This document shows positions 3,548 to 20,458 of a stretch of 64,000 nucleotides of DNA, one piece after another. The stretch lies in the NCBI GenBank assembly GCA_023245935.1, contig JAHFJM010000003.1:1-64000 (forward strand), given 5' to 3'. A model generated the notes under the pieces. It worked only from the letters and a program-made list of their open reading frames with translations. It made no database searches and was not told the origin of the DNA. A program made the position numbers and the translations under genes. Each line of letters begins with the position of its first letter. Position 1 is the stretch's first letter. The stretch comes from Candidatus Peribacteria bacterium (GTDB lineage: Bacteria > Patescibacteriota > Gracilibacteria > Peribacterales > Peribacteraceae).

Positions 3548-3578
3548 TATTTCGTTGATTTTTCATTCACTTTCCACC

Positions 3579-4040
3579 ATGAGTCTCCGTTCTGTTCTGC
3601 CGCTTTTCCTCTGTCTCGTCACTCTCACGGGTTGCGGATCCAAGGAGCTTACACTCTCATCATTCGATGGCTTGAAGAAAGTGACGGTGACCGTCGAAGT
3701 CGCCGATACTCCCAAGGAACGCGATCTCGGGCTGATGAACAGAACGAAGCTTGAGGCGGGGAAGGGGATGCTCTTCGTCTTTAAAGAGCCTGCCATGCTG
3801 TCGTTCTGGATGAAGAACACACTCATTCCCCTTGAAATTCTTTACTTCGATGCGAGCGGGGAATTCGTCAGTACGGCGGAGATGACTCCGTGTACGGCGG
3901 ATCCTTGCGCTCAGTACAAGACGCAAGCGATGTCCCAGTACGCGCTGGAGGTGAATCCTGATTTCCGAAAAGCGAATGAGATAGGGGTTGGATGGAAACT
4001 TGATTTGAATCAGGTGAGGAAGATGGCGAGGCCGAAGTAA
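3579..4040 (+). CDS. DUF192-family lipoprotein
   Basis: A 153-residue lipoprotein: the N-terminus MSLRSVLPLFLCLVTLTGCG carries a lipobox (LTGC), so the mature protein should be lipid-anchored outside the membrane. The rest is a complete DUF192 domain: RDLGLMNRTKL, GMLFVF, LSFWMKNTLIPLEILYFD, and a conserved PC..DPC..Y segment. The function of DUF192 is not established. The ATG at 3579 is chosen because it gives a proper signal peptide; an upstream in-frame ATG at 3537 would add 14 residues and overlap the previous gene. Confidence 0.88.
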   Translation: MSLRSVLPLFLCLVTLTGCGSKELTLSSFDGLKKVTVTVEVADTPKERDLGLMNRTKLEAGKGMLFVFKEPAMLSFWMKNTLIPLEILYFDASGEFVSTAEMTPCTADPCAQYKTQAMSQYALEVNPDFRKANEIGVGWKLDLNQVRKMARPK

Positions 4041-4089
4041 GAAACCTCTTCAACATGCATGCTGCTTCGCCAACTGCATTGAGGTTCTA

Positions 4090-5058
4090 TTACATTCTGT
4101 ACTTTGCCAAATTCTTTTCTATTCTCCCCATCACATCCGTCGTTTCCGGAAGCACGAACGACTCGCCGGTGATTCTCTCGTACAGACCGATGTACTTCAT
4201 GGCAAGATCCATACGAACCTGATCCGATATTTCCGGCTTCTGCTTGCCGTAATCGAAGCCTTGTTCCTTCAGCCACAGACGGAAGAATTCTTTATCCAAG
4301 CTCTCGGGTTCCATGCCTTTCTTCATGCGATCGTCGTACGATGCGGCAACCCAGTACCGCGACGAATCCGGTGTGTGGACTTCGTCCGCCACAGTGACCG
4401 TTCCGTTTTCATCCACTCCCATTTCATACTTCGTATCGACCAGAATCAGTCCGCGTTTCGCCGCTATTTCCTGCCCTCTCTGAAAGAGCGCAAGCGCACG
4501 GTCACTGATCTCTTCCCATTGCTTCTTCGTCGTCAATTTTCGTTCAAGAATGCCTGTGGCATCGATCAATTCATCCGTCTCACCCTTCGTCGTCGGAGTC
4601 ACGATGGCACTCGGAAATTTCTGATTCTTGATCATCCCTTCTGCAAGAGTATTGCCGCAGAAATGACGAACACCTTTCGCATAATTTACCCAGGCGGAGG
4701 TTCCGGTTGAGCCCGTCAGATAGCCGCGAACGATGATTTCCACTTTGAACATGGAGAGTGTTTTGACGACGGTGCAGTTCGGGTCCGGAACCGCGAGAAC
4801 GTGATTGGGCATGATGTCTTTCACCTGCGTGAACCACCACGCGCTGATCTGATTCAGCGCCTGACCTTTCAGCGGGATGCTGCAGAAGGAGACATCGAAT
4901 GCGGATTGTCGATCGGTGGCGATCAGAATGCTTCGTTTTTCCTGCGAGTACACATCACGCACTTTGCCGCTGTATTTCTCACCGAATCCCTTGAAATCGG
5001 TGCTATCAAGCGTCGCATTCAGGAACGGTTGGATTTTTTCAGGAGTGATGGATGGCAT
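4090..5058 (-). CDS. purC: Phosphoribosylaminoimidazole-succinocarboxamide synthase
   Basis: ATP-dependent ligation of aspartate to CAIR, giving SAICAR, step 8 of purine synthesis. The 322-residue protein has YSGKVRDVY (ATP loop), TDRQSAFD, VEIIVRGYLTGS, LVDTKYEMGVDENG and DEVHTPDSSRYW. It is longer than the roughly 237-residue enterobacterial form and closer to the 300-residue yeast-type form. The ATG at 5058 sits 6 nt from a -10 box. PurB, encoded at 25.2 kb, performs the next pathway step; no other purine-ring genes are in the window. Confidence 0.95.
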   Translation of the reverse strand: MPSITPEKIQPFLNATLDSTDFKGFGEKYSGKVRDVYSQEKRSILIATDRQSAFDVSFCSIPLKGQALNQISAWWFTQVKDIMPNHVLAVPDPNCTVVKTLSMFKVEIIVRGYLTGSTGTSAWVNYAKGVRHFCGNTLAEGMIKNQKFPSAIVTPTTKGETDELIDATGILERKLTTKKQWEEISDRALALFQRGQEIAAKRGLILVDTKYEMGVDENGTVTVADEVHTPDSSRYWVAASYDDRMKKGMEPESLDKEFFRLWLKEQGFDYGKQKPEISDQVRMDLAMKYIGLYERITGESFVLPETTDVMGRIEKNLAKYRM

Positions 5059-5169: not shown

Positions 5170-8100
5170 ATGCAATCAAACACTCGTCAAAGGCTGAAGA
5201 CCGGAGCAGCACTTGTTGTCCTTGTTGGGATGGTCATCGCTGCATACTCGCTCGTCGGAGCGTCGAGCATTCCTCAGAAATCCGATGAGCAATCAGCAAC
5301 ACACGTGACTTTTACCAAGACGGTTGTTTCGGTTCCCAGTGCATCCAAGCCCATTTCCAAGCCGACGTGGGTGGATATGAAGAGCGATTCGTGGCAGCGA
5401 AACTCTTCTGAAATCCCCGAGACGACAACGACTGTAGAGAGCAATATCCAGGAAAATGTTGCGCAGCGTTTGCAGAAACGTACGACCGGACTCTTCGCGT
5501 CGTTCGGTCCTGCGACCGATGGGCAGGTCCTCACATTCATCGGCGGGAAAATTTCCTGGGAGAATCTTCCGATCCTGCACGGAGCCGCAGGTTCATTCGA
5601 TACCGGTGACGATACGGGCGGCGGTCGCAAACCGTATCAACTGTCCGATGGCGAGCGTCATTACGGCGGAGGCGGGGGAGGAGGATCTTCTTCCAGTACG
5701 ACGATCACAAACACAACGACGGTAACCGGACTGTCTCAGTCTACGGCTGACGGACTGTACGTGAATGTCTCGGGTGACAGCATGGACGGTGCTCTCAGTA
5801 TTACCTACAACGGTCTCGGTCTTATCGTTTCCGGCACTGCTTCCGGCAACGTTCTTCATGCGGAGCGCTTGCTGACAGTCACTGGCTCGGCGATTTTCGA
5901 CGGCAATGCGAGGTTCAATTCAACGATGACCTTGAATGGCGTGACGTATAGCTTCCCCGGTTCCGACGGCAACGGATCCGGCAAAGTACTGAAGACGAAC
6001 GCTGCAGGTCAGCTGAGTTGGTCCGATGACAATACCGTCGGAACCGGGCTCTCGCAGAATTCGGGAGACGAACGGTACGTGAACCAAGCCGGCGATACGA
6101 TGACCGGAGCGCTCACGATCAATGTCACGAACGGCCTCTCGGCAACCCTCGGGCTCAAAGTCATCAACGCATTCTCCGGTGCTGTCGTACATGCTGAGAA
6201 AACTCTCACTTCCTCCGGCAATCTTGTTTGGGAAAGAGCAGCCTCCGGAGCCTCACTCTACGTTGCCACCTCAATCAATGGTGCAGGACTCACGGATTGT
6301 GATGCAGCCACGCAAACTCTCGCATGGGATGCGACCACCGGCAGATTCTCCTGCGGCACAGATTCCGACACCACCTACACAGCAGGACAAGGCTTCACGA
6401 CCAATGGAACCAACTTCTCACTTTCTTCTGCGTTCTCCGGAACATCTCTGAAGATCTTCGGAACACTGACCGGAAACATTCTCCACGCCGAGAAAACCCT
6501 CACTAGCTCAGGCACCTTCACCGTCGAAGGAGCCATGTCCGGTTCTTCCCTTTATGTCGCCACCAGCATCAACGGTGCAGGACTCACGGACTGTGATCTC
6601 TCCACGCAGAAACTCGCATGGGACAGCACCACCGGACGCTTCTCCTGCGGCACAGACCTGAACACCGGTACGACAGCCGCCCCAAGCATTAACTCCGGTT
6701 CCGTCTTCACGCTCGGTGATGCTCGGTACGTGAAGAAGCAAGGAGACACCATGACGGGAGTACTCACGATCAACAAAACCGGCGCAGAAGTTGGTCTCGA
6801 TGTGAAGCAGGCAGGTTGGTTCAACTCCATCCACTCCACCGGCTCCATCCTCTCCAAAGGAACACTCTCGGGAGTGAACCTCATCATCTCCGGTGTCTCT
6901 TCTCATTCCGGTGCTGCGATGTTCAAATCGAATGTCACCGTCAAAGGAACCCTCTCCGGTCAGACTCTCCAGATCGCCAACAATGCTTCCATCTCCGGTG
7001 CCCTCCTCGTTAAAACCGGTATCACGAGCAAAGGCTCTGTGAGTGGTGCCACCATTAATGGCTTCCACTTGGGTTCTTGTAACGGTGCATCGCAGAAACT
7101 TCTCTACAACAATTCCACGCAGACATTTGAGTGTGGAACGGATCTCAATACCGGTGGAACAGGCACCTTCGGCACAGGCAATGTGATCACGATCGGCGAC
7201 GGTCGATATGTGAATACCTCCGGTGATACGATGACCGGAGCGCTGACGATCAATGTCACGAACGGTCTCTCTGCAACTCTTGGACTCAAAGTTCTCAATG
7301 CATTCTCCGGTGCGGTGATTCATGGCGAGAAAACTCTCACCTCTTCAGGAACTCTCACATGGGAAGGAGCCGCTTCCGGCGCTTCTCTGTACGTTGCTAC
7401 TTCTCTGAACGGCGCAGGACTCACGGACTGTGATGCAGCAACGCAAACTCTCGCTTGGGATGCAACAACCGGCAGATTCTCCTGTGGTACCGATTCCGAC
7501 ACCACCTACACAGCCGGCCAGGGTCTCACGACGAACGGTACCAACTTCTCCCTCTCCTCCGCCCTCTCCGGCACCTCTCTCAGACTCTTCGGCACTCTCA
7601 CCGGAAACATTCTTCACGCTGAGAAGACTCTTACCTCTTCCGGCACTCTCACCATCGAAGGAGCCATGTCCGGTTCCTCCCTCTACATCGCAACCAGCAT
7701 CAATGGAGCAGGGCTCACGGATTGTGATCTCTCCACACAGAAACTCGCATGGGACAGCACCACCGGACGCTTCTCCTGCGGCACGGATCTCAACACCGGT
7801 TCCACCGCTCCTCCTTCCATCAACTCCGGCTCAGTCTTCACACTCGGCAATCTTCATTTCGTGAATGTCGGAGGCGACACCATGACGGGTGCACTCACGA
7901 TCAACAAAACGTCCGCCGAAGTCGGTCTCAACGTCGTGCAAGCCGGTTGGTTCGGTAGCATCCACTCCACCGGCTCGATTCTCTCGAAAGGAACACTTTC
8001 CGGCGTGAACCTCATCATCTCCGGCGTCTCTTCTCATTCCGGTGCTGCGATGTTCAAATCGAATGTCACCATTAAAGGCACTCTCTCCGGACAAACTCTC

Positions 8101-11100
8101 CAGATTGCCAACAATGCCTCAATCTCCGGTGCCCTCCTTATTAAGGGAAACCTCGCCACCAAATCCAACCTCTCCGGTTCCGCCCTCTTCGGTATGGGAC
8201 TCGGCGATTGCAGCAACTCAACCACCTCCAAACTTATCTACAACAACTCCACCGGTAAATTCTCGTGTGCCAGCGACATCGACACCAACACCACCTACAC
8301 AGCCGGCCAGGGTCTCACGACGAACGGTACCAACTTCTCCCTTTCCTCCGCCCTCTCCGGCACTTCTCTCAGACTCTTCGGCACTCTCACCGGAAACATT
8401 CTCCATGCCGAGAAAACCCTCACCAGCTCAGGCACCCTCACCGTCGAAGGAGCCATGTCCGGTTCTTCCCTCTACGTCGCAACCAGCATCAACGGTGCAG
8501 GACTCACGGACTGCGATCTCTCCACGCAGAAACTCGCATGGGACAGCACCACCGGTCGTTTCTCCTGCGGCACAGACCTGAACACCGGTTCCACTGCTCC
8601 TCCTTCCATCAACTCCGGTTCCGTCTTCACGCTCGGAAACCCTCATTTCGTGAATGTCGGGGGCGACACCATGACGGGCGCACTCACCATCAATGTCACG
8701 AACGGTCTCTCGGCCACTCTCGGACTCAAAGTTCTCAACGCATTCTCCGGTTCCGTGATTCACGCCGAGAAAACTCTTACCAGCTCCGGCGGTCTCGTCT
8801 GGGAAGGCGCTGCCTCGGGTTCTTCCCTCTACGTCGCCACTTCTCTCCGTGGTGCAGGACTCACAGACTGTACCGGTGGCAACAAGCTCCTCTGGGATTC
8901 CTCGACCGGCAGATTCACCTGCGGTGTTGATCAGTCTGCCGGCACTGGGCTTGATCAAAATTCTGCCGATGTTCGCTACGTCAATCAATCCGGAGACACC
9001 ATGACCGGTCTCCTCACCATCAACCTTGCCGCTTCCGCCGTCGGTCTCGATGTGAAGCAGGCAGGTTGGTTCAACACCATCCACTCCACCGGTTCGATTC
9101 TCTCCAAAGGAACCCTCTCCGGCGTGAACCTCATCATCTCCGGTGTCTCTTCTTTCTCCGGTGCTTCCACCTTCAAGAACAACCTTACGGTCAAAGGCAC
9201 TCTCTCCGGTCAAACTCTCCAGATTGCCAACAATGCTTCCATCTCCGGTGCCCTCCTCGTCAAAGGAAACATCGCAACGAAAGCCACTCTCTCGGGTGCT
9301 TCGCTCATCGGCTTCGGTCTCGGCGATTGCAGCAATGCCACGACCAGTAAACTCATCTACAACAACTCCACCGGAAAATTCTCGTGTGCTACGGACACTG
9401 ACACGAATACGACCTACACCGCAGGACAGGGTCTCACGACCAACGGTACCAACTTCTCCCTTTCCTCCGCCCTCTCCGGCACTTCTCTCAGACTCTTCGG
9501 CACTCTCACGGGAAACATTCTTCATGCCGAGAAGACACTCACCAGCTCAGGCACCCTCACCGTCGAAGGAGCCATGTCCGGTTCTTCCCTCTACGTCGCA
9601 ACCAGCATCAACGGTGCAGGACTCACGGACTGTGATGCAGCAACGCAAACTCTCGCTTGGGATGCAACAACCGGCAGATTCTCCTGTGGTACCGATTCCG
9701 ACACCACCTACACCGCAGGACAGGGTCTCACGACCAACGGTACCAACTTCTCCCTTTCCTCCGCCCTCTCCGGCACTTCTCTCAGACTCTTCGGCACTCT
9801 CACGGGAAACATTCTTCACGCTGAGAAAACGCTTACCTCTTCCGGAACACTCACGATTGAAGGTGCAATGTCTGGAGCATCTCTCTACGTCGCCACCAGC
9901 ATCAACGGTGCAGGACTCACGGACTGTGATCTCTCCACGCAGAAACTCCTCTGGGACAGCACCACCGGACGTTTCTCTTGTGGAACAGACCTGAACACCG
10001 GCACGACAGCCGCCCCGAGCATCAACTCCGGTTCTGTCTTCACCCTCGGTGATGCCAGATTCGTGAAGAAACAAGGAGACACGATGACCGGAGCCCTCAC
10101 GATCAACAAAACCGGCGCAGAAGTTGGTCTGGATGTGAAGCAGGCAGGCTGGTTCAACTCCATCCACTCCACCGGCTCGATTCTCTCGAAAGGAACACTT
10201 TCCGGAGAAAACCTTATTGTCTCAGGTGTCTCCTCCTTCTCCGGCATCGTCGTCCTCAAGGGAAATCTCCTTTCGAAAGGTACTCTCTCAGGACAGAACC
10301 TCATCATCTCCGGTGTTTCTTCTCACTCCGGTGCTGCGATGTTCAAATCGAATGTCACCATTAAAGGCACTCTCTCCGGACAAACTCTCCAGATTGCCAA
10401 CAATGCCTCAATCTCCGGTGCCCTCCTTATTAAGGGAAACCTCGCCACCAAATCCAACCTCTCCGGTTCCGCCCTCTTCGGTATGGGACTCGGCGATTGC
10501 AGCAACTCAACCACCTCCAAACTTATCTACAACAATTCCACCGGAAAGTTCTCGTGTGCCAGTGATCAGACCGGAAGCAGCGGGCTCTCCTTCACGAATG
10601 CAGAAGGAATCTATGTGAATCAGGGTGGCGATACGATGACAGGTGCTCTGAATATCAATGTCACGGGCGGCGGATTTGCCACAGTCGGTCTCAAGGTCGT
10701 GAACACCATCACCGGTGCGATCATCCATGCGGAGAAAAATCTCACGAGCTCGGGAAATATCGTTGCCGCTCAGGACATTACGGCGAAGAGGAATCTTTCC
10801 GGAAGCAGCATCACTGTTTCACGGAATGGTTCCATTTCCGGCTCGCTCACAGTCAAAACGAGTATTGTCAGTCAGGGTTCTCTCTCCGGTTCTACGTTCT
10901 ATGGAGCCAACCTTGGAGACTGTAATAACAGCACGACATCAAAACTCATCTACAACCTCGCAACAGGAAAATTCGGCTGTGCGACGGATCAGACCGGAAG
11001 TGCTGCTCCGAGCATCAACTCCGGCTCCGTCTTCACGCTCGGCAATCTTCATTTCGTGAACGTCGGCGGAGACACGATGACCGGTGCTCTCGTTATCAAC

Positions 11101-14100
11101 AAGACCAGTGCTGCCGTCGGTCTCGACGTCAAGCAAGCTGCTTGGGTCAACACTCTCCACGCAACCGGTTCGATCCTCAGCAAAGGAACCATTTCCGGCA
11201 GCAACCTCATCGTCTCCGGTGTCTCCTCCTTCTCCGGCATCGTCGTTCTCAAGGGAAACCTTCTCAGTAAGGGCACTCTCTCCGGACAGAATCTCATCAT
11301 CTCCGGAGTTTCCTCTTTCTCCGGCGCTTCCACCTTTAAGAACAACCTTACGGTCAAAGGAACTCTCTCCGGTCAAACTCTCCAAATCGCCAACAATGCT
11401 TCTATCTCCGGTGCCGTGATCATCAAAGGAAATCTCGCAACGAAAGCCACACTCTCGGGTGCGTCTGTCTACGGCTTCGGCCTCGGAGATTGCAGCAACA
11501 GCACGACCTCCAAACTCATCTACAACAATTCCACCGGGAAATTCTCGTGTGCCACTGATGTCGACACCGATACGAATACCAGTTACACAGCAGGACAAGG
11601 TCTCACGACAAACGGAACGAACTTCTCGCTTTCCTCAGCACTCTCGGGAACCTCTCTCAAGATCTTCGGCACTCTCACCGGAAAAATTCTGCATGCTGAG
11701 AAGACTCTTACATCCTCGGGAACTCTCACCGTCGAAGGAGCAATGTCCGGAGCCTCACTGTACGTTGCCACCTCAATCAATGGCGCAGGACTCACGGATT
11801 GCGATGCAGCAACACAGACTCTCGCATGGGACGCAACAACCGGTCGCTTCTCCTGCGGAACGGACTCCGATACAACCTACACTGCAGGTCAGGGGCTCAC
11901 GACAAACGGAACCAACTTCTCTCTCTCCTCCGCACTCTCAGGAACCTCTCTCAGACTCTTCGGAACTCTGACGGGAAACATTCTGCATGCGGAGAAGAAC
12001 CTCACTTCTTCAGGAACAATGGTGATTGTTGGCAATGGAAACATCAGAGGAACGCTTTCGGGCAACATCATTCATGCGGAAAAAAATCTCACAAGCTCAG
12101 GTGCGATTGTCGCAGTTGGAGACATACTTTCTCGAAACGGAACAGCAAAAACAAAAGGTTATGTTTTCTTTTCAGGTGCAACACTCTCCGAGATGAGCGG
12201 CTTCAATGAATATCTGAACATCATTCATTCCGGTCTCGGAACGAACTCCGTTACCCGTCTTACGAATCAAGGAGATCTCGTGAATATCGGAACGATTCAA
12301 GCGGGAGAAACACACATGAGGAGAGGAGGGACGTTTGCGACAAAGGTGGATTATGCGACGGGAACCACTCCGCAGTTTGTCGCCATCAGAGACCTCAATA
12401 GTGACGGAAAGGCTGATCTTGTGGTAGTGAACGGAGCGAGCAACTCCGTCTCCGTCTTCATTGGCACAGGCTCGGGTCTCTTCGTCGCCAAAGTAGACTA
12501 CCCAACAGGAAGCAACCCTTTCTCCGTCGCTATCGGTGATCTGAATGGCGATGGGAAACCTGATCTTTCCGTCGCAAATTACAGCAGCAACTCCGTCTCC
12601 GTCTTCCTCAATAACGGCAATGGAACATTCGCCGGTAAAGTCGATTATACAACGGCAACGTCTCCTCATTCCGTTGCTATCGGTGATCTGAATGGCGATG
12701 GGAAGCCCGATCTTGCTGTAGCAAATAATGCTAGCGACTCGGTCTCCGTCTTCCTGAACAGAGGGAACGGCACTTTCGCTGCAAAGGTTGATTATACGAC
12801 TGGAAACGGTCCCTATGCCGTTGCAATCGGAGACCTGAACGGAGACGGCAAGGCGGATCTTGTCGTTACAAATGCCGGCAGTACCTACGCTTCTGTTTTC
12901 TTGAATAACGGTGACGGAACATTCGCCTCGAAAGTTGATTACACGACGGGATTCAGTAACTATGCCGTCGCAATCGGAGATCTGAACGGTGACGGAAAGG
13001 CGGACTTTGCAGTTACCATACACAATAGCAATATTGTCTACGTCTTCCTCAATAACGGTGACGGAACATTCGCTTCGAAGGTTGATTACACGGCGGGGGA
13101 TACCTCCAGTTCCATTGCCATTGGAGACCTGAATGGTGACGGAAAAGCAGATCTTGCAGTTGGAAATCAGGCTAGTGGTGTAGGAACCTTTGTTTCCATC
13201 TTGATCAACAACGGCAACGGCACCTTCGCAACGAAGGTGGATTATACGACGGGAACTGGTCCTCTTGTTGCAATCGGAGATCTCAATGGTGACGGAAAAG
13301 CAGATCTTGCTGTTGCCAACTCTGCAAGCGACTCTGTTTCAGTATTGCTCAACATCTCCAAGACTATCCTCTTTGCATCTTCCGGCACCGGCGGCGCCGT
13401 TGGTATCGGAACTTCCACTCCGGGTTCCGCGCTGTCCGTGTCCGGTGCGGTGCTCATCAACGGCTACGGAAATATCCTCAATACGAAAGTCGACGTCGGT
13501 CTTGCGCTCGAAGTGATCGGCACCATGTCCGGTCGAGTACTGCATGCACAGGATGTGCTTCGCTCCTCCGGCTCACTTATTGTCGAAGGGACGATCTCGG
13601 GAGCAACACTCCGCGGTGCGGGACTTGCAAGTTGCAACGGCTCCACACAGAAACTTCTCTATAACAATTCCACGAATAAATTTGAATGCGGCACTGATCT
13701 GAACACCGGAGGAACAAGTACATTCGGCTCCGGGAACGTGATCAACGTCGTTGAAGGCAGATATGTGAACACCTCCGGCGACACCATGACCGGTGCTCTC
13801 ACGATCAATGTCACGAACGGTCTCTCTGCCACTCTCGGACTCAAAGTTCTCAACGCATTCTCCGGTGCCGTCGTTCACGCTGAGAAAACTCTCACCAGCT
13901 CCGGCGGTCTCGTCTGGGAAGGAGCAGCTTCAGGATCTTCCCTCACCCTCGGTACTTCTCTCCGTGGTGCAGGGCTCACAGACTGTACCGGTGGCAACAA
14001 ACTCCTCTGGGATTCTGCTTCCGGCAGATTCTCCTGCGGCGTTGATCAATCCGCCGGATCAGGCTTGGATCAGAATTCCGCTGATGCTCGCTACGTCAAT

Positions 14101-17100
14101 CAGTCGGGAGACACCATGACCGGTCTCCTCACCATCAACCTGGCTGCTTCCGCCGTCGGTCTTGATGTGAAGCAGGCAGGCTGGTTCAACTCGATCCACT
14201 CCACCGGTTCGATCCTCTCCAAAGGCACTCTCTCCGGTGTGAACCTCATCATCTCCGGAGTCTCCTCTTTCTCCGGTGCTTCCACCTTCAAGAACAACCT
14301 TACGGTCAAAGGCACTCTCTCCGGTCAAACTCTCCAGATTGCCAACAATGCTTCCATCTCCGGTGCCCTCCTTATCAAAGGAAACCTTGCCACCAAATCC
14401 AACCTCTCCGGTTCCGCCCTCTTTGGCATGGGTCTCGGAGATTGCAGCAACAGCACGACCTCCAAACTCATCTACAACAATTCCACCGGTAAATTCTCGT
14501 GTGCCAGCGACATCGACACCAACACCACCTACTCAGCCGGACAGGGTCTCACGACAAACGGTACCAACTTCTCACTCTCCTCCGCCCTCTCCGGCACTTC
14601 TCTCAGACTCTTCGGCACTCTCACGGGAAACATTCTTCACGCTGAGAAGACTCTCACCTCTTCCGGGACACTCACGATTGAAGGTGCAATGTCCGGAGCC
14701 TCACTCTATGTTGCCACCTCAATCAATGGCGCAGGACTCACGGATTGTGATGCAGCAACGCAGACGCTGAACTGGGATTCCACCACCGGACGTTTCTCCT
14801 GTGGCACAGACTCCGACACCACCTACACAGCCGGCCAGGGTCTCACGACGAACGGTACCAACTTCTCCCTTTCCTCCGCCCTCTCCGGCACTTCTCTCAA
14901 ACTCTTTGGCACTCTCACCGGAAACATTCTTCATGCAGAAAAGACTCTCACGTCTTCGGGAACTCTCACCATCGAGGGCGCAATGTCCGGAGCCTCTCTC
15001 TACGTCGCCACTTCCTTCTCCGGGGTTGGACTGTCGGATTGTGATACTGCTGCTACCTCCAAGTTGCTTTGGGATGTTACCACCGGCAGATTCTCCTGCG
15101 GATCAGACCAGACCGGCGGCGGTTCCGCTCCTCCTTCCATCAACTCCGGCTCCGTCTTCACGCTCGGCAATCTCCACTTCGTGAATGTCGGCGGCGACAC
15201 CATGACGGGTGCACTCACCATCAACAAGACCGGCGCAGAAGTGGCTCTCGATATCAAACAAGCAGCGTGGGTCAATTCTCTCCATTCCACCGGTTCCATC
15301 CTTTCGAAAGGAAACCTTTCCGGAGAAACGTTGATCGTCTCCGGCAATGCAAACGTCTCCGGAGCACTTCTGACCAAAGGAAATATTTCCACTCGAGGAA
15401 CAATCTCCGGTGCAGCACTCAACATCATGAGCGGCAATTCCTACTTCCTCGGCAAGCTTGGAATCGGAAAATCGACCGCTCCAAACACCCCTCTCGAGAT
15501 CGTCGGCATGGGCTCGGGAACCAGCCTCTTCGCGATGCGAGCGCTCACAAGCAGCGGCTTCCTCGCCGTCCAGCAGTCGATTGCGATCGGTTCCGGTGCA
15601 ATCGTGATGGAGCAGAAGGCGAACAACACGGGTGCCTACCTGATGTCCAGCTTCACCGGCTCGGTGCATCCGCTCCTTGCGCTTGACAGCGCACGTCGAA
15701 GCTTCAAGGCACCCGCCATCATGTTCGGTTACCGCGGCAGCTTCGATACGTCACTCCAGCGCACGGACACGGGAACGCTTGCACTCTCCGGCAGTATGGT
15801 GATTCAGAATACGCTCAGCATCAAAGTCTTCGGAGCCGCAACGGCGACGACGGTTTGTCGCACTGCGACGGGCATGCTTGCAGCGTGCAGCTCGAGTCTT
15901 CGTTTCAAGGAAGATGTGCAGGACTTGAGCATGGGTCTTTCGGTCCTTCGGCAAATGCGTCCGGTCAACTTCAAGTGGAAAGGCAGAGACGAGCGTGACA
16001 TCGGTTTCATCGCCGAGGAAGTCGCAGCCGTCGATCCGATGCTTGCGACCTACAATAACGCCGGACAGATCGAAGGTGTGAAGTACATGCAGCTGACCGC
16101 GGTGCTCACGAATGCCGTGAAGACTCTCGATACGAGGCTGCTTGGCATCACGAATGACTCGGGCACAACTCTTCATGCTCGCGATCTGCTCGTCAGTTCC
16201 GGAGCCCTGAAGGTAGCCACATTCGGCACATTCGGTTCGGGCATTCTCCTCGACACGAAGTATGCAAATGGCGCTGAGAACGTCTTCGTCATCAAGTCGA
16301 GTGTCGGCGGTTCCGGAAGCAAAACTGTCTTCAGGATCAACGCTTCGGGCTCCGTCTTCACGACCGGAACATTCAACAGTCAGGGAGCGGACTACGCCGA
16401 GTGGTTCAAGTCCAGTGACAGACTAAAGATCGGCGAAGTTGTCTGTATTGATGTCGACCACGACAATACGGTCCTTCGTTGCGGACGCTCTGCAGATTCC
16501 AATGTGATGGGCATTGTCTCGACTCGTCCCGCGTTCATCGGCAATACGATCCCCGGGACTGAAGGACTCAGCAGAGAAGCCATGGCACGGAAGGGATATT
16601 TCCTCGTCGGTCTCATCGGTCAGGTTCCGGCACGCGCGACGCTCGAAGGAGGCATCATCCGCTCCGGCGACAGTCTGACGTCAGCGTCTGAGCCGGGCTT
16701 TGTGCGCAGAGCACGGGCAGGGGAATCGACGGTCGGTGTTGCGCTCGAAACATTCGATGGTTCGGCTTCGCTCACCACAGGTGGCTCGACATCTTCCACG
16801 TCGACGATCAACGTTCTCATCTCTCGTCGCAATTCGTCGATGACGGTCGATGCCGTCTCACAGAAAGTGCTCGACACGATCGCAAGCATGCAGATCGGGG
16901 ATGAGGTGAAACGCATGGTCGCCGCATCGGCGCAGCAATTCAATCTCTCCGGTTCTCTTGCGACCGCCGTTGCCTCCGAGATCGAATCTCTGAATCTGGA
17001 AGGCAGGATCTCTGCGGCGATCGAGAAACATCTCTCCGGTGCGACGCTTCCGCTCACGATCATTGCAAACCCTGCGTCCGGATTGTCGTTCGCTTCCGGC

Positions 17101-18078
17101 GGAATGCTGCATGCCGCAGCGCTCGAAGTCGAAAGCGGTGCCATGATTTCCGGCGCTCTTCGCTTGAATGGTTCGATGATCACGAGCAATCAGTTCTCAC
17201 TGATCAATTCTCAGGTATCAATGTTGTCCGTCTCCGGTTCCGCCATCCAGATCGGTTCACTGATGTCCTCAGGTTCTCTCACGTTGATCGGTCCCGTCAC
17301 GATCGAAGGGCTCTCGACGTTCCTCGGGGATGTCGAGATCAAAGGTGAGCTCTCTGTCAGCGCAAAACAGGCGGGCATTGCTCTCGTGCCGAAAGGAGGA
17401 ACGGGTGTGTCGGTCACGTTCTCCGGAGCATTCCTCGGAACACCGATCGTGACGGCGACGTCCGACGGCTTCGGTTCGTGGCGCCTCAGGAATCGCACGC
17501 AGTCCGGGTTCACCATCGAGCTCAAAGAGCCTGCGAACGAAGATGTCACATTCACGTGGCTTGCACTTTCTTCCAGAGCACCGAGCATGACAACAGGCGT
17601 GCCGGCGACCCCGTCGCTCATTCCGTTCCCTGTGAACAGTCTCGGTCAACCGGTCTCGAGTGATCCGATCTGGAACGGCTGCATTCAGGGTCATCCGCCG
17701 GTCGACGCTGACGGTGTTCCGTTCAGCTGCGCTCGGTATCATTCCGACTCGGTGTGGGATCATCCAGATCTGCATATCAGTTTCATCTATAGCAGCAGTC
17801 ACGATCCCGCGATTCTGACAATCCCTGAGGGATACCAAGTGACGGTTGTCGGAGGAGATACAGCTTCGAGCTCGTCTTCTCAATCTGACACTCCGACAGA
17901 CCAAAACATTCCTGAAATCAGCACAGATCCGATCGTTGTTCCTCAGGTAATTCCTATCATTGAAACAACCGACTCGGGATCGTCTGATGCATCGGTCACG
18001 GTCAATCCGGAGAGTGATGAGACGCCACCGGTACCGACTGAATCGGGTGTCGAAACAGGAAGTGCGCTCGAGGAGTAG
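5170..18078 (+). CDS. Giant repeat surface protein with tail-fibre modules, FG-GAP propeller and S74 self-cleaving domain
   Basis: 4302 residues. An N-terminal membrane segment (about 13-31) acts as signal or anchor. After a Gly-rich linker (about 166-180) come 13 copies of a G-D-x-M-x-G motif typical of phage tail-fibre shafts (residues about 200-2380 and 2870-3400). Seven DLNGDGK-type FG-GAP/VCBS repeats (about 2387-2735) interrupt them. The S74 chaperone-of-endosialidase domain begins at Ser3576-LRF-Lys3580-ED, the usual Ser/Lys autocleavage site, and includes DIGFIAEEV. Unlike classic S74 proteins, about 726 residues follow: a YAEWF...VMGIVSTRPAFIGN region resembling Peptidase_G2 (about 3742-3880), a segment resembling H-type lectin (about 4073-4135), and a Ser/Thr/Pro-rich acidic tail. 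Inference: a trimeric surface fibre for attachment. The exosortase gene follows 27 nt later. Confidence 0.88.
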   Translation: MQSNTRQRLKTGAALVVLVGMVIAAYSLVGASSIPQKSDEQSATHVTFTKTVVSVPSASKPISKPTWVDMKSDSWQRNSSEIPETTTTVESNIQENVAQRLQKRTTGLFASFGPATDGQVLTFIGGKISWENLPILHGAAGSFDTGDDTGGGRKPYQLSDGERHYGGGGGGGSSSSTTITNTTTVTGLSQSTADGLYVNVSGDSMDGALSITYNGLGLIVSGTASGNVLHAERLLTVTGSAIFDGNARFNSTMTLNGVTYSFPGSDGNGSGKVLKTNAAGQLSWSDDNTVGTGLSQNSGDERYVNQAGDTMTGALTINVTNGLSATLGLKVINAFSGAVVHAEKTLTSSGNLVWERAASGASLYVATSINGAGLTDCDAATQTLAWDATTGRFSCGTDSDTTYTAGQGFTTNGTNFSLSSAFSGTSLKIFGTLTGNILHAEKTLTSSGTFTVEGAMSGSSLYVATSINGAGLTDCDLSTQKLAWDSTTGRFSCGTDLNTGTTAAPSINSGSVFTLGDARYVKKQGDTMTGVLTINKTGAEVGLDVKQAGWFNSIHSTGSILSKGTLSGVNLIISGVSSHSGAAMFKSNVTVKGTLSGQTLQIANNASISGALLVKTGITSKGSVSGATINGFHLGSCNGASQKLLYNNSTQTFECGTDLNTGGTGTFGTGNVITIGDGRYVNTSGDTMTGALTINVTNGLSATLGLKVLNAFSGAVIHGEKTLTSSGTLTWEGAASGASLYVATSLNGAGLTDCDAATQTLAWDATTGRFSCGTDSDTTYTAGQGLTTNGTNFSLSSALSGTSLRLFGTLTGNILHAEKTLTSSGTLTIEGAMSGSSLYIATSINGAGLTDCDLSTQKLAWDSTTGRFSCGTDLNTGSTAPPSINSGSVFTLGNLHFVNVGGDTMTGALTINKTSAEVGLNVVQAGWFGSIHSTGSILSKGTLSGVNLIISGVSSHSGAAMFKSNVTIKGTLSGQTLQIANNASISGALLIKGNLATKSNLSGSALFGMGLGDCSNSTTSKLIYNNSTGKFSCASDIDTNTTYTAGQGLTTNGTNFSLSSALSGTSLRLFGTLTGNILHAEKTLTSSGTLTVEGAMSGSSLYVATSINGAGLTDCDLSTQKLAWDSTTGRFSCGTDLNTGSTAPPSINSGSVFTLGNPHFVNVGGDTMTGALTINVTNGLSATLGLKVLNAFSGSVIHAEKTLTSSGGLVWEGAASGSSLYVATSLRGAGLTDCTGGNKLLWDSSTGRFTCGVDQSAGTGLDQNSADVRYVNQSGDTMTGLLTINLAASAVGLDVKQAGWFNTIHSTGSILSKGTLSGVNLIISGVSSFSGASTFKNNLTVKGTLSGQTLQIANNASISGALLVKGNIATKATLSGASLIGFGLGDCSNATTSKLIYNNSTGKFSCATDTDTNTTYTAGQGLTTNGTNFSLSSALSGTSLRLFGTLTGNILHAEKTLTSSGTLTVEGAMSGSSLYVATSINGAGLTDCDAATQTLAWDATTGRFSCGTDSDTTYTAGQGLTTNGTNFSLSSALSGTSLRLFGTLTGNILHAEKTLTSSGTLTIEGAMSGASLYVATSINGAGLTDCDLSTQKLLWDSTTGRFSCGTDLNTGTTAAPSINSGSVFTLGDARFVKKQGDTMTGALTINKTGAEVGLDVKQAGWFNSIHSTGSILSKGTLSGENLIVSGVSSFSGIVVLKGNLLSKGTLSGQNLIISGVSSHSGAAMFKSNVTIKGTLSGQTLQIANNASISGALLIKGNLATKSNLSGSALFGMGLGDCSNSTTSKLIYNNSTGKFSCASDQTGSSGLSFTNAEGIYVNQGGDTMTGALNINVTGGGFATVGLKVVNTITGAIIHAEKNLTSSGNIVAAQDITAKRNLSGSSITVSRNGSISGSLTVKTSIVSQGSLSGSTFYGANLGDCNNSTTSKLIYNLATGKFGCATDQTGSAAPSINSGSVFTLGNLHFVNVGGDTMTGALVINKTSAAVGLDVKQAAWVNTLHATGSILSKGTISGSNLIVSGVSSFSGIVVLKGNLLSKGTLSGQNLIISGVSSFSGASTFKNNLTVKGTLSGQTLQIANNASISGAVIIKGNLATKATLSGASVYGFGLGDCSNSTTSKLIYNNSTGKFSCATDVDTDTNTSYTAGQGLTTNGTNFSLSSALSGTSLKIFGTLTGKILHAEKTLTSSGTLTVEGAMSGASLYVATSINGAGLTDCDAATQTLAWDATTGRFSCGTDSDTTYTAGQGLTTNGTNFSLSSALSGTSLRLFGTLTGNILHAEKNLTSSGTMVIVGNGNIRGTLSGNIIHAEKNLTSSGAIVAVGDILSRNGTAKTKGYVFFSGATLSEMSGFNEYLNIIHSGLGTNSVTRLTNQGDLVNIGTIQAGETHMRRGGTFATKVDYATGTTPQFVAIRDLNSDGKADLVVVNGASNSVSVFIGTGSGLFVAKVDYPTGSNPFSVAIGDLNGDGKPDLSVANYSSNSVSVFLNNGNGTFAGKVDYTTATSPHSVAIGDLNGDGKPDLAVANNASDSVSVFLNRGNGTFAAKVDYTTGNGPYAVAIGDLNGDGKADLVVTNAGSTYASVFLNNGDGTFASKVDYTTGFSNYAVAIGDLNGDGKADFAVTIHNSNIVYVFLNNGDGTFASKVDYTAGDTSSSIAIGDLNGDGKADLAVGNQASGVGTFVSILINNGNGTFATKVDYTTGTGPLVAIGDLNGDGKADLAVANSASDSVSVLLNISKTILFASSGTGGAVGIGTSTPGSALSVSGAVLINGYGNILNTKVDVGLALEVIGTMSGRVLHAQDVLRSSGSLIVEGTISGATLRGAGLASCNGSTQKLLYNNSTNKFECGTDLNTGGTSTFGSGNVINVVEGRYVNTSGDTMTGALTINVTNGLSATLGLKVLNAFSGAVVHAEKTLTSSGGLVWEGAASGSSLTLGTSLRGAGLTDCTGGNKLLWDSASGRFSCGVDQSAGSGLDQNSADARYVNQSGDTMTGLLTINLAASAVGLDVKQAGWFNSIHSTGSILSKGTLSGVNLIISGVSSFSGASTFKNNLTVKGTLSGQTLQIANNASISGALLIKGNLATKSNLSGSALFGMGLGDCSNSTTSKLIYNNSTGKFSCASDIDTNTTYSAGQGLTTNGTNFSLSSALSGTSLRLFGTLTGNILHAEKTLTSSGTLTIEGAMSGASLYVATSINGAGLTDCDAATQTLNWDSTTGRFSCGTDSDTTYTAGQGLTTNGTNFSLSSALSGTSLKLFGTLTGNILHAEKTLTSSGTLTIEGAMSGASLYVATSFSGVGLSDCDTAATSKLLWDVTTGRFSCGSDQTGGGSAPPSINSGSVFTLGNLHFVNVGGDTMTGALTINKTGAEVALDIKQAAWVNSLHSTGSILSKGNLSGETLIVSGNANVSGALLTKGNISTRGTISGAALNIMSGNSYFLGKLGIGKSTAPNTPLEIVGMGSGTSLFAMRALTSSGFLAVQQSIAIGSGAIVMEQKANNTGAYLMSSFTGSVHPLLALDSARRSFKAPAIMFGYRGSFDTSLQRTDTGTLALSGSMVIQNTLSIKVFGAATATTVCRTATGMLAACSSSLRFKEDVQDLSMGLSVLRQMRPVNFKWKGRDERDIGFIAEEVAAVDPMLATYNNAGQIEGVKYMQLTAVLTNAVKTLDTRLLGITNDSGTTLHARDLLVSSGALKVATFGTFGSGILLDTKYANGAENVFVIKSSVGGSGSKTVFRINASGSVFTTGTFNSQGADYAEWFKSSDRLKIGEVVCIDVDHDNTVLRCGRSADSNVMGIVSTRPAFIGNTIPGTEGLSREAMARKGYFLVGLIGQVPARATLEGGIIRSGDSLTSASEPGFVRRARAGESTVGVALETFDGSASLTTGGSTSSTSTINVLISRRNSSMTVDAVSQKVLDTIASMQIGDEVKRMVAASAQQFNLSGSLATAVASEIESLNLEGRISAAIEKHLSGATLPLTIIANPASGLSFASGGMLHAAALEVESGAMISGALRLNGSMITSNQFSLINSQVSMLSVSGSAIQIGSLMSSGSLTLIGPVTIEGLSTFLGDVEIKGELSVSAKQAGIALVPKGGTGVSVTFSGAFLGTPIVTATSDGFGSWRLRNRTQSGFTIELKEPANEDVTFTWLALSSRAPSMTTGVPATPSLIPFPVNSLGQPVSSDPIWNGCIQGHPPVDADGVPFSCARYHSDSVWDHPDLHISFIYSSSHDPAILTIPEGYQVTVVGGDTASSSSSQSDTPTDQNIPEISTDPIVVPQVIPIIETTDSGSSDASVTVNPESDETPPVPTESGVETGSALEE
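6040..12130 (+). repeat. Coding repeat array 1 of the giant protein
   Basis: Long in-frame modules recur with near-identical DNA. Module A (GQGLTTNGTNFSLSS through TTGRFSCGTD) begins near 6382, 7516, 8302, 9424, 9718, 11593 and 11884. Module B (INSGSVFTLG through NNASISGALL) begins near 6687, 7818, 10018 and 11014. Module C (GDTMTGALTINVTNG) begins near 6091, 7225 and 8668. The near-identity over hundreds of bases suggests recent duplication or gene conversion, and the region is prone to misassembly from short reads. Confidence 0.85.
12328..13370 (+). repeat. Seven FG-GAP/VCBS repeats within the giant protein
   Basis: Seven repeats of about 48-50 residues, each with a calcium-loop-like D-L-N-(G/S)-D-G-K-x-D motif and a preceding K-V-D-Y-x-T-G strand. 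Seven units are what a closed seven-bladed integrin-alpha-type propeller requires. The block sits between two runs of fibre repeats. Confidence 0.85.
13770..15370 (+). repeat. Coding repeat array 2 of the giant protein
   Basis: The same A, B and C modules as array 1 resume after the propeller: GDTMTG motifs near 13783, 14110 and 15196, and GQGLTTNGTNFSLSS near 14539 and 14836. At DNA level they are very similar to array 1, implying the FG-GAP block was inserted into, or grew within, a pre-existing array. Confidence 0.8.
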
Positions 18079-18105: not shown

Positions 18106-19083
18106 ATGCAGAAGTTTGTTTTGCTCGTTAGAAAAATCGCTGCCGGCGATACGAGTCAGCTCTGTGTTGCATATCTTCTGACGCTTGCTTGTTCATGGCT
18201 CACATCAAGCGTGACTTTCGACCGGTGGCTTGGCATCCCACACCTCGACATCATCAACTATGCTGCCTCGCCCATCGAATGGCTGCTCTTGGTGCTTCTG
18301 ATGTGTGCCTACCTCAAGCCGCCTCGCACGACTCCGCCTGCCCTCCTTCTCGAGAGAGTACGTTGGTTCGAGTACGGTTCGCTCTTGCTCTTCATCGGGA
18401 GCGTTCTGTTCGCCGTGTGGTTCACACATCCAAACGATGAGATGTATCAGCGTATTCTTGCATTCCTCGGGAGCAACCACGTGCTCGGGGGACCGCTTGT
18501 TGCAGCGGCAATCGGCATCGTCACCGTCTTTCCGTTCTTCCCCGCCTACGCGTTCATCGCGCCGAGGACGGTGCTCGGGAAAGGTGTCGAGCTCATCGTG
18601 GTGTTCTTCACTCTCGTCGGTTGTTTCGCAATCAGCGTCATCGAAGCAATGTATTTTTCTGCGATTGCACCTTTCATCATTCGCCTGCTTTCGAAGATTC
18701 TCCTTCTGTTTTCGTGGAACGTGTATGCGAATCAGCAGTACGGCATCATCAGCATCGACGGATTCCGGGTGATCATCGGTCCCGCCTGCGCGGGATTCGG
18801 CTATCTGCTCCTGTTTCTTCTCTTCTTCACCTACATGGTGTTCATGCTTGGAACGAAGAAAAAAATCTCTTCCCTCCGGTCGTTCCTTGCACTGTTTCTC
18901 GGTCTTCTCTGCGTGTTCTTTCTGAATATTCTCCGCATCGTGACGCTGATGCTCGTAGGAATCAAATCTCCTGATTTCGCACTGACGCTCTTCCATAGCA
19001 TCATCGGAAGCGTGTATTTCCTGCTGTTCTTTTGGATGTATTTTCCGGTGCTGAAGAAATGGATCGGTGTGAAGAAAGGATAG
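18106..19083 (+). CDS. Exosortase/archaeosortase-family membrane protein
   Basis: A 325-residue polytopic membrane protein with about eight hydrophobic segments. It carries the three hallmarks of exosortases: Cys228 in GPACAGFG, Arg277 in NILRIV, and His297 in LFHSIIG, each at the edge of a membrane helix and in the family order. Exosortases are cysteine transpeptidases that cut C-terminal sorting signals and attach the protein to the cell surface. The gene begins 27 nt after the giant fibre gene. The likely substrate, with a C-terminal VPEF signal, is the protein at 20531-22729. The subfamily cannot be named from sequence reading alone. Confidence 0.82.
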   Translation: MQKFVLLVRKIAAGDTSQLCVAYLLTLACSWLTSSVTFDRWLGIPHLDIINYAASPIEWLLLVLLMCAYLKPPRTTPPALLLERVRWFEYGSLLLFIGSVLFAVWFTHPNDEMYQRILAFLGSNHVLGGPLVAAAIGIVTVFPFFPAYAFIAPRTVLGKGVELIVVFFTLVGCFAISVIEAMYFSAIAPFIIRLLSKILLLFSWNVYANQQYGIISIDGFRVIIGPACAGFGYLLLFLLFFTYMVFMLGTKKKISSLRSFLALFLGLLCVFFLNILRIVTLMLVGIKSPDFALTLFHSIIGSVYFLLFFWMYFPVLKKWIGVKKG

Positions 19084-19105: not shown

Positions 19106-20458
19106 ATGGTCAAACGACCCGCGATATGCTCTAATAAAGGAATGCGGCGAGCGAGTGCTGAAAGACTCGGCTTACGGAAAGCAGGTACACACGAAGCTTC
19201 GCCTATTGATTCTCTGAAACTATGGATTGCAGGATGGACTGCGGAGTTTCATGCAAAGACCACTCGGACAGCTGCAATCTCCGGTGAGAGCACAACCGTC
19301 GGTGCGAAGGAGACAGTGAAGGAAGTCATTTCCCTCCATGATGCGGTTTCGAAATTTCTGAGGGATCAGGGAACACCTCTGACTCCTGTTCAGCAGTCTC
19401 TGCTGGCACAATTGAAAAATGATCCTGATCTTCTGAGGAGAGATAAATCGAATTTTAAGGAGACATGGCAAACGTATCGATACGATACTGAGGAAGGACG
19501 TGAGTTAGGGAGATTAGCCGGGCAGTCGCAGGATATTGACAAACTGTGCCCTCATTTTTCATATGTGGAACCCACACGGTCACCTGATGAGGATGGTACC
19601 CGTCGCTTTACCGAAGAGACAACAGGTCGGTTTGAAGTGGAGTCGCGCGGTCACAATGTTATCAAACTCGTGGACAGTCCGGTTGTCGCTCAGGTTCCCG
19701 TTCCTGCAACGGTGCAAGCGCATTCCGGCAGTATCCGCAAAAGGCTATTTGCCGCCGTTGCCGGTGTAGGTGTGTTGCTTAGTGGTGCATATGTGGCAAA
19801 GGAAAAATTGTTCGACGGGCATGGAGAAAATCCGCAAGAAAATTTGATAAAAGCAGGATTCGATGTCTCGAGAGTCCCTGAGTTGTACGAACACACCGTT
19901 TCCAATGTCTTCTTGCTTGATTTGGATCTGAACAATATGAAACCGGAAGACGTTGCCAAGTTTCGACGCGTGGTTGAACTTATCGATGATGAAGAGGCGC
20001 TCGTCTACCTCTTGGAGAACGGCACCCCCGATGAAATCGTTCGTTTGCACAGAGCTCTCGATCACTGTTTTTCAATTCAAAAAGAGTTACGGAAGAATGA
20101 AGGTCTGAAGAAGGATAAGGAGCGTGCCATCGTCGCTGTCAGAGATGGCGATATCGCCGCAATTGAGAAGATCGATGAAGCAATGAGCAGTGAGTTGACG
20201 AGTGCGGAAGAACTCGTAGTGAAAACGTATGGAAAACCGTTTCTGGAATTTGCAAAAAAAAGAAAAATCGGAGTGCTGGATGCGACGGATTGTTCTATGC
20301 TGCCGAGGGGATCGAATTTTGTTTTTGCGGGCGACAGTCAGTCTGCCGTACGATCCTTCAAAAATCCGAATCCCAATATGCACTACAACGTGCGGATCAT
20401 CAAAACGTCCGCTCCTAAAGAGGATGAAGACCGGCACATGGCATCGTCACCGAAGTAG
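19106..20458 (+). CDS. Unknown protein with one central membrane segment, in the exosortase cluster
   Basis: 450 residues. A basic N-terminus is followed by a soluble charged region, one hydrophobic segment near residues 214-233 (LFAAVAGVGVLLSGAYVA), and a C-terminal helical, charged domain (about 245-430). No signal peptide, catalytic motif or known domain is recognisable. An alternative start is the ATG at 19142. It is encoded between the exosortase and its probable substrate on the same strand, so it may belong to the same surface-assembly unit; that is inference from position only. Confidence 0.6.
   Translation: MVKRPAICSNKGMRRASAERLGLRKAGTHEASPIDSLKLWIAGWTAEFHAKTTRTAAISGESTTVGAKETVKEVISLHDAVSKFLRDQGTPLTPVQQSLLAQLKNDPDLLRRDKSNFKETWQTYRYDTEEGRELGRLAGQSQDIDKLCPHFSYVEPTRSPDEDGTRRFTEETTGRFEVESRGHNVIKLVDSPVVAQVPVPATVQAHSGSIRKRLFAAVAGVGVLLSGAYVAKEKLFDGHGENPQENLIKAGFDVSRVPELYEHTVSNVFLLDLDLNNMKPEDVAKFRRVVELIDDEEALVYLLENGTPDEIVRLHRALDHCFSIQKELRKNEGLKKDKERAIVAVRDGDIAAIEKIDEAMSSELTSAEELVVKTYGKPFLEFAKKRKIGVLDATDCSMLPRGSNFVFAGDSQSAVRSFKNPNPNMHYNVRIIKTSAPKEDEDRHMASSPK

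Follow-up and report, generated by a model that had tools for sequence, protein, structure and literature searches.

The S74 domain is best known as a chaperone at the end of phage fibers, where it is subsequently discarded. In T5 pb1, the catalytic dyad consists of Ser1264 and Lys1269 and the chain is cut between Thr1263 and Ser1264 (PMC4690869); in endoNF the dyad is S911/K916 (PMC8326128). The protein described here, encoded in a stretch of 64,000 nucleotides that we analyzed as a whole and refer to as the window, resembles phage endosialidases and T5 pb1 in the S74 domain, its catalytic register and the length of the chaperone unit (PMC4690869). An internal S74-type domain is also found in the intramolecular chaperone domain of MYRF, which likewise has a Ser+5 Lys dyad (S587/K592, cut P586-S587; PMC8326128) and a long C-terminal part (PMC3742443, PMC8326128). 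MYRF, however, is a eukaryotic membrane transcription factor, whereas the window protein is presumably a secreted bacterial fiber.

The mosaic adhesive trimer (MAT) fibers of Bdellovibrio, which comprise an S74 and an NS74 group, are also bacterial, secreted, trimeric and phage-like, possess adhesive tips and carry S74 in some members (PMC10769870). Their S74 motif is SDxxxK, and for the fiber Bd3182 self-cleavage at S782 was demonstrated and is blocked by the exchange S782A (PMC10769870). The S74 members of this group end in S74 and are typically about 1000 aa long (PMC10769870), whereas the window protein comprises 4302 aa, of which about 640 aa including a lectin-like tip follow S74. MAT fibers have a conserved β-rich domain of about 130 aa after the signal peptide (PMC10769870), and the likeness to the window protein is one of architecture only. 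The autochaperone of the Peptidase_G2 type (G2) of phi29 gp12 and Dpo31 has a counterpart in the window protein with respect to fold (3gqh, 3suc) and to sequence (28nb, including the motif DYAE), which differs in being internal, in having Ala before DYAE and in being placed after S74. Residues 4062–4136 share their fold with H-type lectins and R-pyocin fiber tips, but the sequence identity is only about 16–24%.

Thus, an internal S74 domain is already known from MYRF, and S74 domains of bacterial fibers from Bdellovibrio, where they are terminal. A literature search in open-access papers returned nothing on S74 in Patescibacteria. What appears to be new is the phylum-wide position of S74 before a lectin-like tip, its tandem arrangement with G2 and the natural pairs of fibers with and without S74. 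A phylum of probably symbiotic bacteria with tiny genomes mostly puts S74 in front of a lectin-like tip, and the proteins concerned are candidate host-attachment fibers in a bacterial group with very few known ones.

Overall organization of the giant fiber protein

The window is part of a 1.22 Mb genome (99% complete) of a Candidatus Peribacteria bacterium (Patescibacteria). Reading and translation of the ORF at positions 5170–18078 (+), which starts with ATG and encodes 4302 aa, confirmed that it is real. The nearest named relatives were found in metagenome genomes of Candidatus Peribacteria, with 69% identity across the C-terminal region. A Pfam search with the entire protein yielded FG-GAP repeats, a Bactofilin-like match within the repeats and one Peptidase_S74 domain above the cut-off, and a profile search of the source genome confirmed that S74 is present as a single copy. 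Further Pfam matches within the repeats, such as BioG, PH_32, CBM_5_12 and MinC, were dismissed as repeat noise, since no stretch passed when scanned alone.

Residues 1–31 (5170–5262, +) consist of MQSNTRQRLK, a hydrophobic core and SLVGA-SS, with putative cleavage at the hyphen. Two paralogues of the same genome start in the same way. These N-terminal sequences, judged by eye without a dedicated predictor, look like cleavable signal peptides and therefore favor a secreted product over the membrane-anchored one assumed in an earlier note on this DNA, an assumption that is left without support. When the C terminus was scanned by sequence, neither a sorting signal, an apparent membrane helix nor the combination of LPxTG with a membrane helix was found.

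The N-terminal domain and a repetitive shaft extend approximately from 5500 to 12486 (+), as deduced from motif positions and the Bactofilin-like match. Most of the 13 phage-fiber-like GDTMTG motifs and 15 LHAE-type motifs of the protein are located there. The FG-GAP region that follows (approximately 12487–13464, +) has seven repeats (PF13517, E 5.4e-62; PF01839, seven stretches) and probably folds into a β-propeller. According to sequence and motif positions, a second shaft stretch (residues 2766–3574; 13465–15891, +) leads up to the predicted cut site.

The S74 domain and its predicted cut site

The Peptidase_S74 domain (PF13884) was detected with 48 bits at a cut-off of 22, and with 46.2 bits when the region was scanned. 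The earlier note had thus correctly recognized an S74 domain inside the giant ORF and its internal position, more than 700 residues being located downstream. Position 1 of the Pfam model corresponds to residue 3575. When the region was aligned with S74 domains of phages, both Ser3575 and Lys3580 were invariant, while residue 3576 was mostly Asp or Ser. As the experimentally mapped dyads of other S74 proteins also have Lys at Ser+5, the catalytic serine is, on the basis of these alignments, Ser3575, which forms a Ser-x4-Lys pair with Lys3580. The dyad Ser3576-Lys3580 suggested earlier has a +4 spacing and is one residue off. Pfam register, alignments and mapped dyads consistently place the predicted scissile bond between Ser3574 and Ser3575 (15889–15894, +), so that the pieces would comprise residues 1–3574, minus the signal peptide, and 3575–4302 (728 aa). 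Cleavage would still be expected to yield two pieces as proposed before, with the sizes of about 3575 and 726 residues corrected to 3574 and 728. The S74 chaperone unit, which contains Ser3575, Lys3580 and a terminal coil, was assigned to residues 3575–3660 (15892–16149, +), as the 30 viral S74 domains among the 40 rows of alignment A5 end near residue 3660, at the same point as the coil in the window protein.

Across the phylum, 62 S74 domains were compared, in which the serine (61 of 61) and the lysine (62 of 62) were invariant; the 62nd domain was clipped in the profile alignment and by eye also has a Ser five positions before the Lys. In a comparison with the two closest relatives, dN was lower for S74 than for any other C-terminal region (0.105 versus 0.17–0.30, or, as ranges, 0.10–0.11 versus 0.15–0.31) with a dN/dS of about 0.08, a ratio that is rough because synonymous sites are near saturation. 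Neither the S74 domain nor the tail is decaying. Since serine and lysine are invariant and S74 is the slowest-evolving region, self-cleavage is likely.

An AlphaFold2 (AF2) model of residues 3530–4215 gave no usable structure for S74 (pLDDT under 35), and the assignment of the S74 fold therefore relies on sequence profiles. Arg3564 was not conserved in the alignment, and no residue could be matched to the stalk arginine that is the oxyanion partner in endoNF (Arg897) and T5 (Arg1250), a placement that would require a trimer model. In MYRF, however, cleavage does not depend on stalk residues (PMC8326128).

The region downstream of S74

In the 728-residue piece, the S74 unit of about 86 aa is followed by a shaft motif, the G2 region, a helical spacer, a lectin fold, a Cys-pair domain and a Ser/Thr/Pro tail. 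The resumed shaft (residues 3661–3738; 16150–16383, +) contains SGTTLHARDLLVSSGALKV, which is identical to an internal shaft repeat in 12 of 19 positions, the best of 50 shuffles reaching 10.

Residues 3739–3880 (16384–16809, +) represent the G2 region. When scanned alone it matched PF11962 with 26.4 bits at a cut-off of 25, and borderline (24.9 bits) together with more sequence; the match covers only part of the model (20–98 of 228). PF11962 was also found in eight of ten relatives. In fold comparisons with the model, the G2 part matched phi29 gp12 (3gqh, Z 8.0, rmsd 2.9, 67 aligned residues; 3suc, Z 7.7), and it showed a sequence match to the chaperone domain of Dpo31 (28nb; E 0.0077) that includes DYAE. 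The Peptidase_G2-like region mentioned earlier is therefore present but goes beyond mere resemblance: it is a second phage-type autochaperone.

This raises the alternative that it is G2, with a possible cut between Ala3740 and Asp3741, that does the cutting in the family, whereas S74 serves as an extra chaperone whose own cleavage carries little weight. In favor of it, the motif GADYAE is invariant among the aligned family members, and its Asp3741 aligns with residue 692 of phi29 gp12, the mature form of which, gp12*, ends at 691 (PMC6542822). The residue preceding the bond is, however, Ala3740 where the Dpo31 domain has Ser, the Pfam match is partial, and both dyad and sequence of S74 are conserved, which renders this alternative rather unlikely. 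In another protein of the collection (L061, G394:C73), a G2-like domain is located 176 residues upstream of S74; this reversed order shows that G2 and S74 modules are shuffled.

A helical spacer with β repeats (residues 3881–4060; 16810–17349, +), predicted with low confidence from secondary structure, connects G2 to residues 4062–4136 (17353–17577, +). For the latter, model and fold comparison supported the H-type-lectin-like segment described in the earlier note, with matches to discoidin (Z 8.3–9.1), Helix agglutinins (Z 7.5–8.1, 69–70 residues, rmsd 1.8–2.0) and phage tailspikes and R-pyocin fibers (mostly Z 7.0–9.1; tailspike 7eea, Z 9.1). The modelled H-type lectin fold downstream of S74 is a possible binding domain. 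It is followed by the Cys-pair domain (WNxCI...CxRYH...WxHPDL; residues 4150–4215; 17617–17814, +), which was defined by invariant columns of alignment A1, and by the Ser/Thr/Pro-rich tail (17815–18075, +), which is evident from the sequence as stated before. The AF2 run, with a mean pLDDT of 43.8, modelled only the lectin-like and Cys-pair domains (both around 80) and part of G2 (near 60).

Position of S74 in Patescibacteria and phages

S74 was present in 92 of 379 genomes drawn from the phylum. In 59 proteins of the retrieved loci, the window included, the C terminus after S74 was complete, and the distance from the serine to the stop ranged from 97 to 951 residues with a median of 348; it exceeded 140 residues in 50 and 250 residues in 38 of these proteins. 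A terminal S74 domain of the phage type would have the stop no more than about 140 residues from the serine, whereas 728 residues were found in the window protein. In contrast, phage S74 is C-terminal: on viral contigs the distance was 90–135 residues (median 100; 96 of 96 within 135), although these 96 contigs were picked by similarity to the query and are thus not a random sample of phages.

A profile of the lectin-like domain of the window family matched 33 of the 59 tails, and 39 after iteration, but gave no matches in controls made from these proteins, for which upstream, shuffled or reversed sequence was used. The lectin-like domain ended at most 15 residues from the C terminus in 22 of the 39 cases. 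Judged by these tail lengths and profile counts, S74 proteins of this phylum usually have a lectin-like tip behind the S74 domain. The internal S74 is therefore not peculiar to a single protein, as had been implied, and none of the phage relatives inspected showed its combination with a lectin tip. An origin of the fiber from a phage was considered and rejected, as phage records matched only the S74 part (12–19% of the query, 34–36% identity) and the G2 part found only four weak viral relatives. One protein of the phylum (L088, G172:C23; ORF from 3882, 1707 aa) contains S74 twice, with Ser757 and Ser1405 as the serines, each of which has a Lys at +5.

S74 as an optional cassette

The tail that follows S74 in the window protein was found in 54 of 74 family genomes (44 of the 57 good ones), S74 itself in 11 of 74 (8 of 57). 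In the genome of the window, two neighboring giant paralogues of 4704 and 4788 aa (L158 and L159; G000:C5, approximately 101498–115610 and 116318–130680) have signal peptides and the same tail, but no S74; they are 75% identical and contain 28 FG-GAP stretches each, equivalent to about four propellers. In one assembly, L103 with S74 has a sister without S74, L105 (99/96 support). The tail tree required at least three changes of the S74 state, two of which are forced by well-supported branches. The different frequencies of tail and S74 and the S74-less paralogues with the same tail indicate that S74 is an optional cassette in otherwise alike fibers. As similar fibers with and without S74 occur in the same cells, the role of the internal domain is directly testable.

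These pairs also bear on the fate of the 728-residue piece. According to the earlier note, a membrane-anchored fiber releases a diffusible binding fragment of 726 residues. A lectin-like domain located behind an internal S74 fits this view, but the N terminus resembles a cleavable signal peptide, the serine was off by one, and in the S74-less paralogues this tail stays covalently linked to the fiber; we consider it very doubtful. Removal of everything past Ser3575 as in phages, which would make the shaft end at residue 3574 the mature tip, has a precedent in T5, where loss of the chaperone exposes a receptor-binding site (PMC4690869), and would be in line with the second autochaperone in the tail. 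Against this, lectin-like and Cys-pair domains form the end of the tail, and most fibers of the family have this tail although they lack S74, so that we regard such removal as unlikely.

Alternatively, S74 might fold the shaft and cut, while the 728-residue piece stays in place; the lectin tip would then remain on the fiber, and the nick would serve only to check folding. The sister protein and the same-genome paralogues, which have this tail but no S74, the purifying selection on the tail in members with S74, and the shaft, coil and lectin modules of the piece itself all speak for such a docked tip. As the T5 chaperone leaves after cleavage (PMC4690869) and no docking interface is known in the window protein, this is a good possibility that nevertheless falls short of being probable. 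Simple loss of the tail would be odd in view of the purifying selection acting on it and its presence in the S74-less paralogues. Since the S74-less sisters suggest that the tail works in the attached state, a docked or regulated tip is favored over a throw-away cap.

Proposed mechanism

Taking the sequence data together, the window protein is probably a secreted, phage-fiber-like trimeric adhesin, in which an S74 cassette is inserted between two shaft segments upstream of the conserved family tail and cuts between Ser3574 and Ser3575. Based on the behavior of the S74 family, the chains would trimerize through the S74 coil, S74 would template folding of the upstream shaft, and after folding the Ser3575/Lys3580 dyad would cut the Ser3574-Ser3575 bond. 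The products would be a shaft of 3574 residues and a C-terminal piece of 728 residues with the chaperone first, followed by the G2-type autochaperone and the lectin-like tip. More tentatively, S74 may serve in Patescibacteria as an internal, optional self-cutting joint between a long fiber and a lectin-like tip, in the window family in tandem with G2, which would link correct folding of the fiber to the detachment or remodelling of its adhesive end.

A neighboring exosortase system

A gene of the exosortase/archaeosortase family (18106–19083, +; TIGR04178, E 3.7e-10) is also present in the window. Exosortase was found in 12 and S74 in 11 of the 74 family genomes; both were present in six, compared to about 1.8 expected by chance, a figure that is uncorrected for kinship. 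A joint operon of fiber and exosortase was rejected, as the exosortase gene does not adjoin the fiber gene in the relatives. The gene following that for the exosortase (19106–20458, +) codes for a protein of 450 aa with one hydrophobic segment, which belongs to no Pfam family and did not pass the cut-off of any NCBIfam model. Two genes past the exosortase gene, at 20531–22729 (+), a predicted secreted protein is encoded that ends in a VPEF-type sorting signal (AVPEFSALGLIAVLAGCGYMMKKKMTG). Judging from their sequences, the exosortase gene and the VPEF protein make up an exosortase system, here in a genome of the Patescibacteria.
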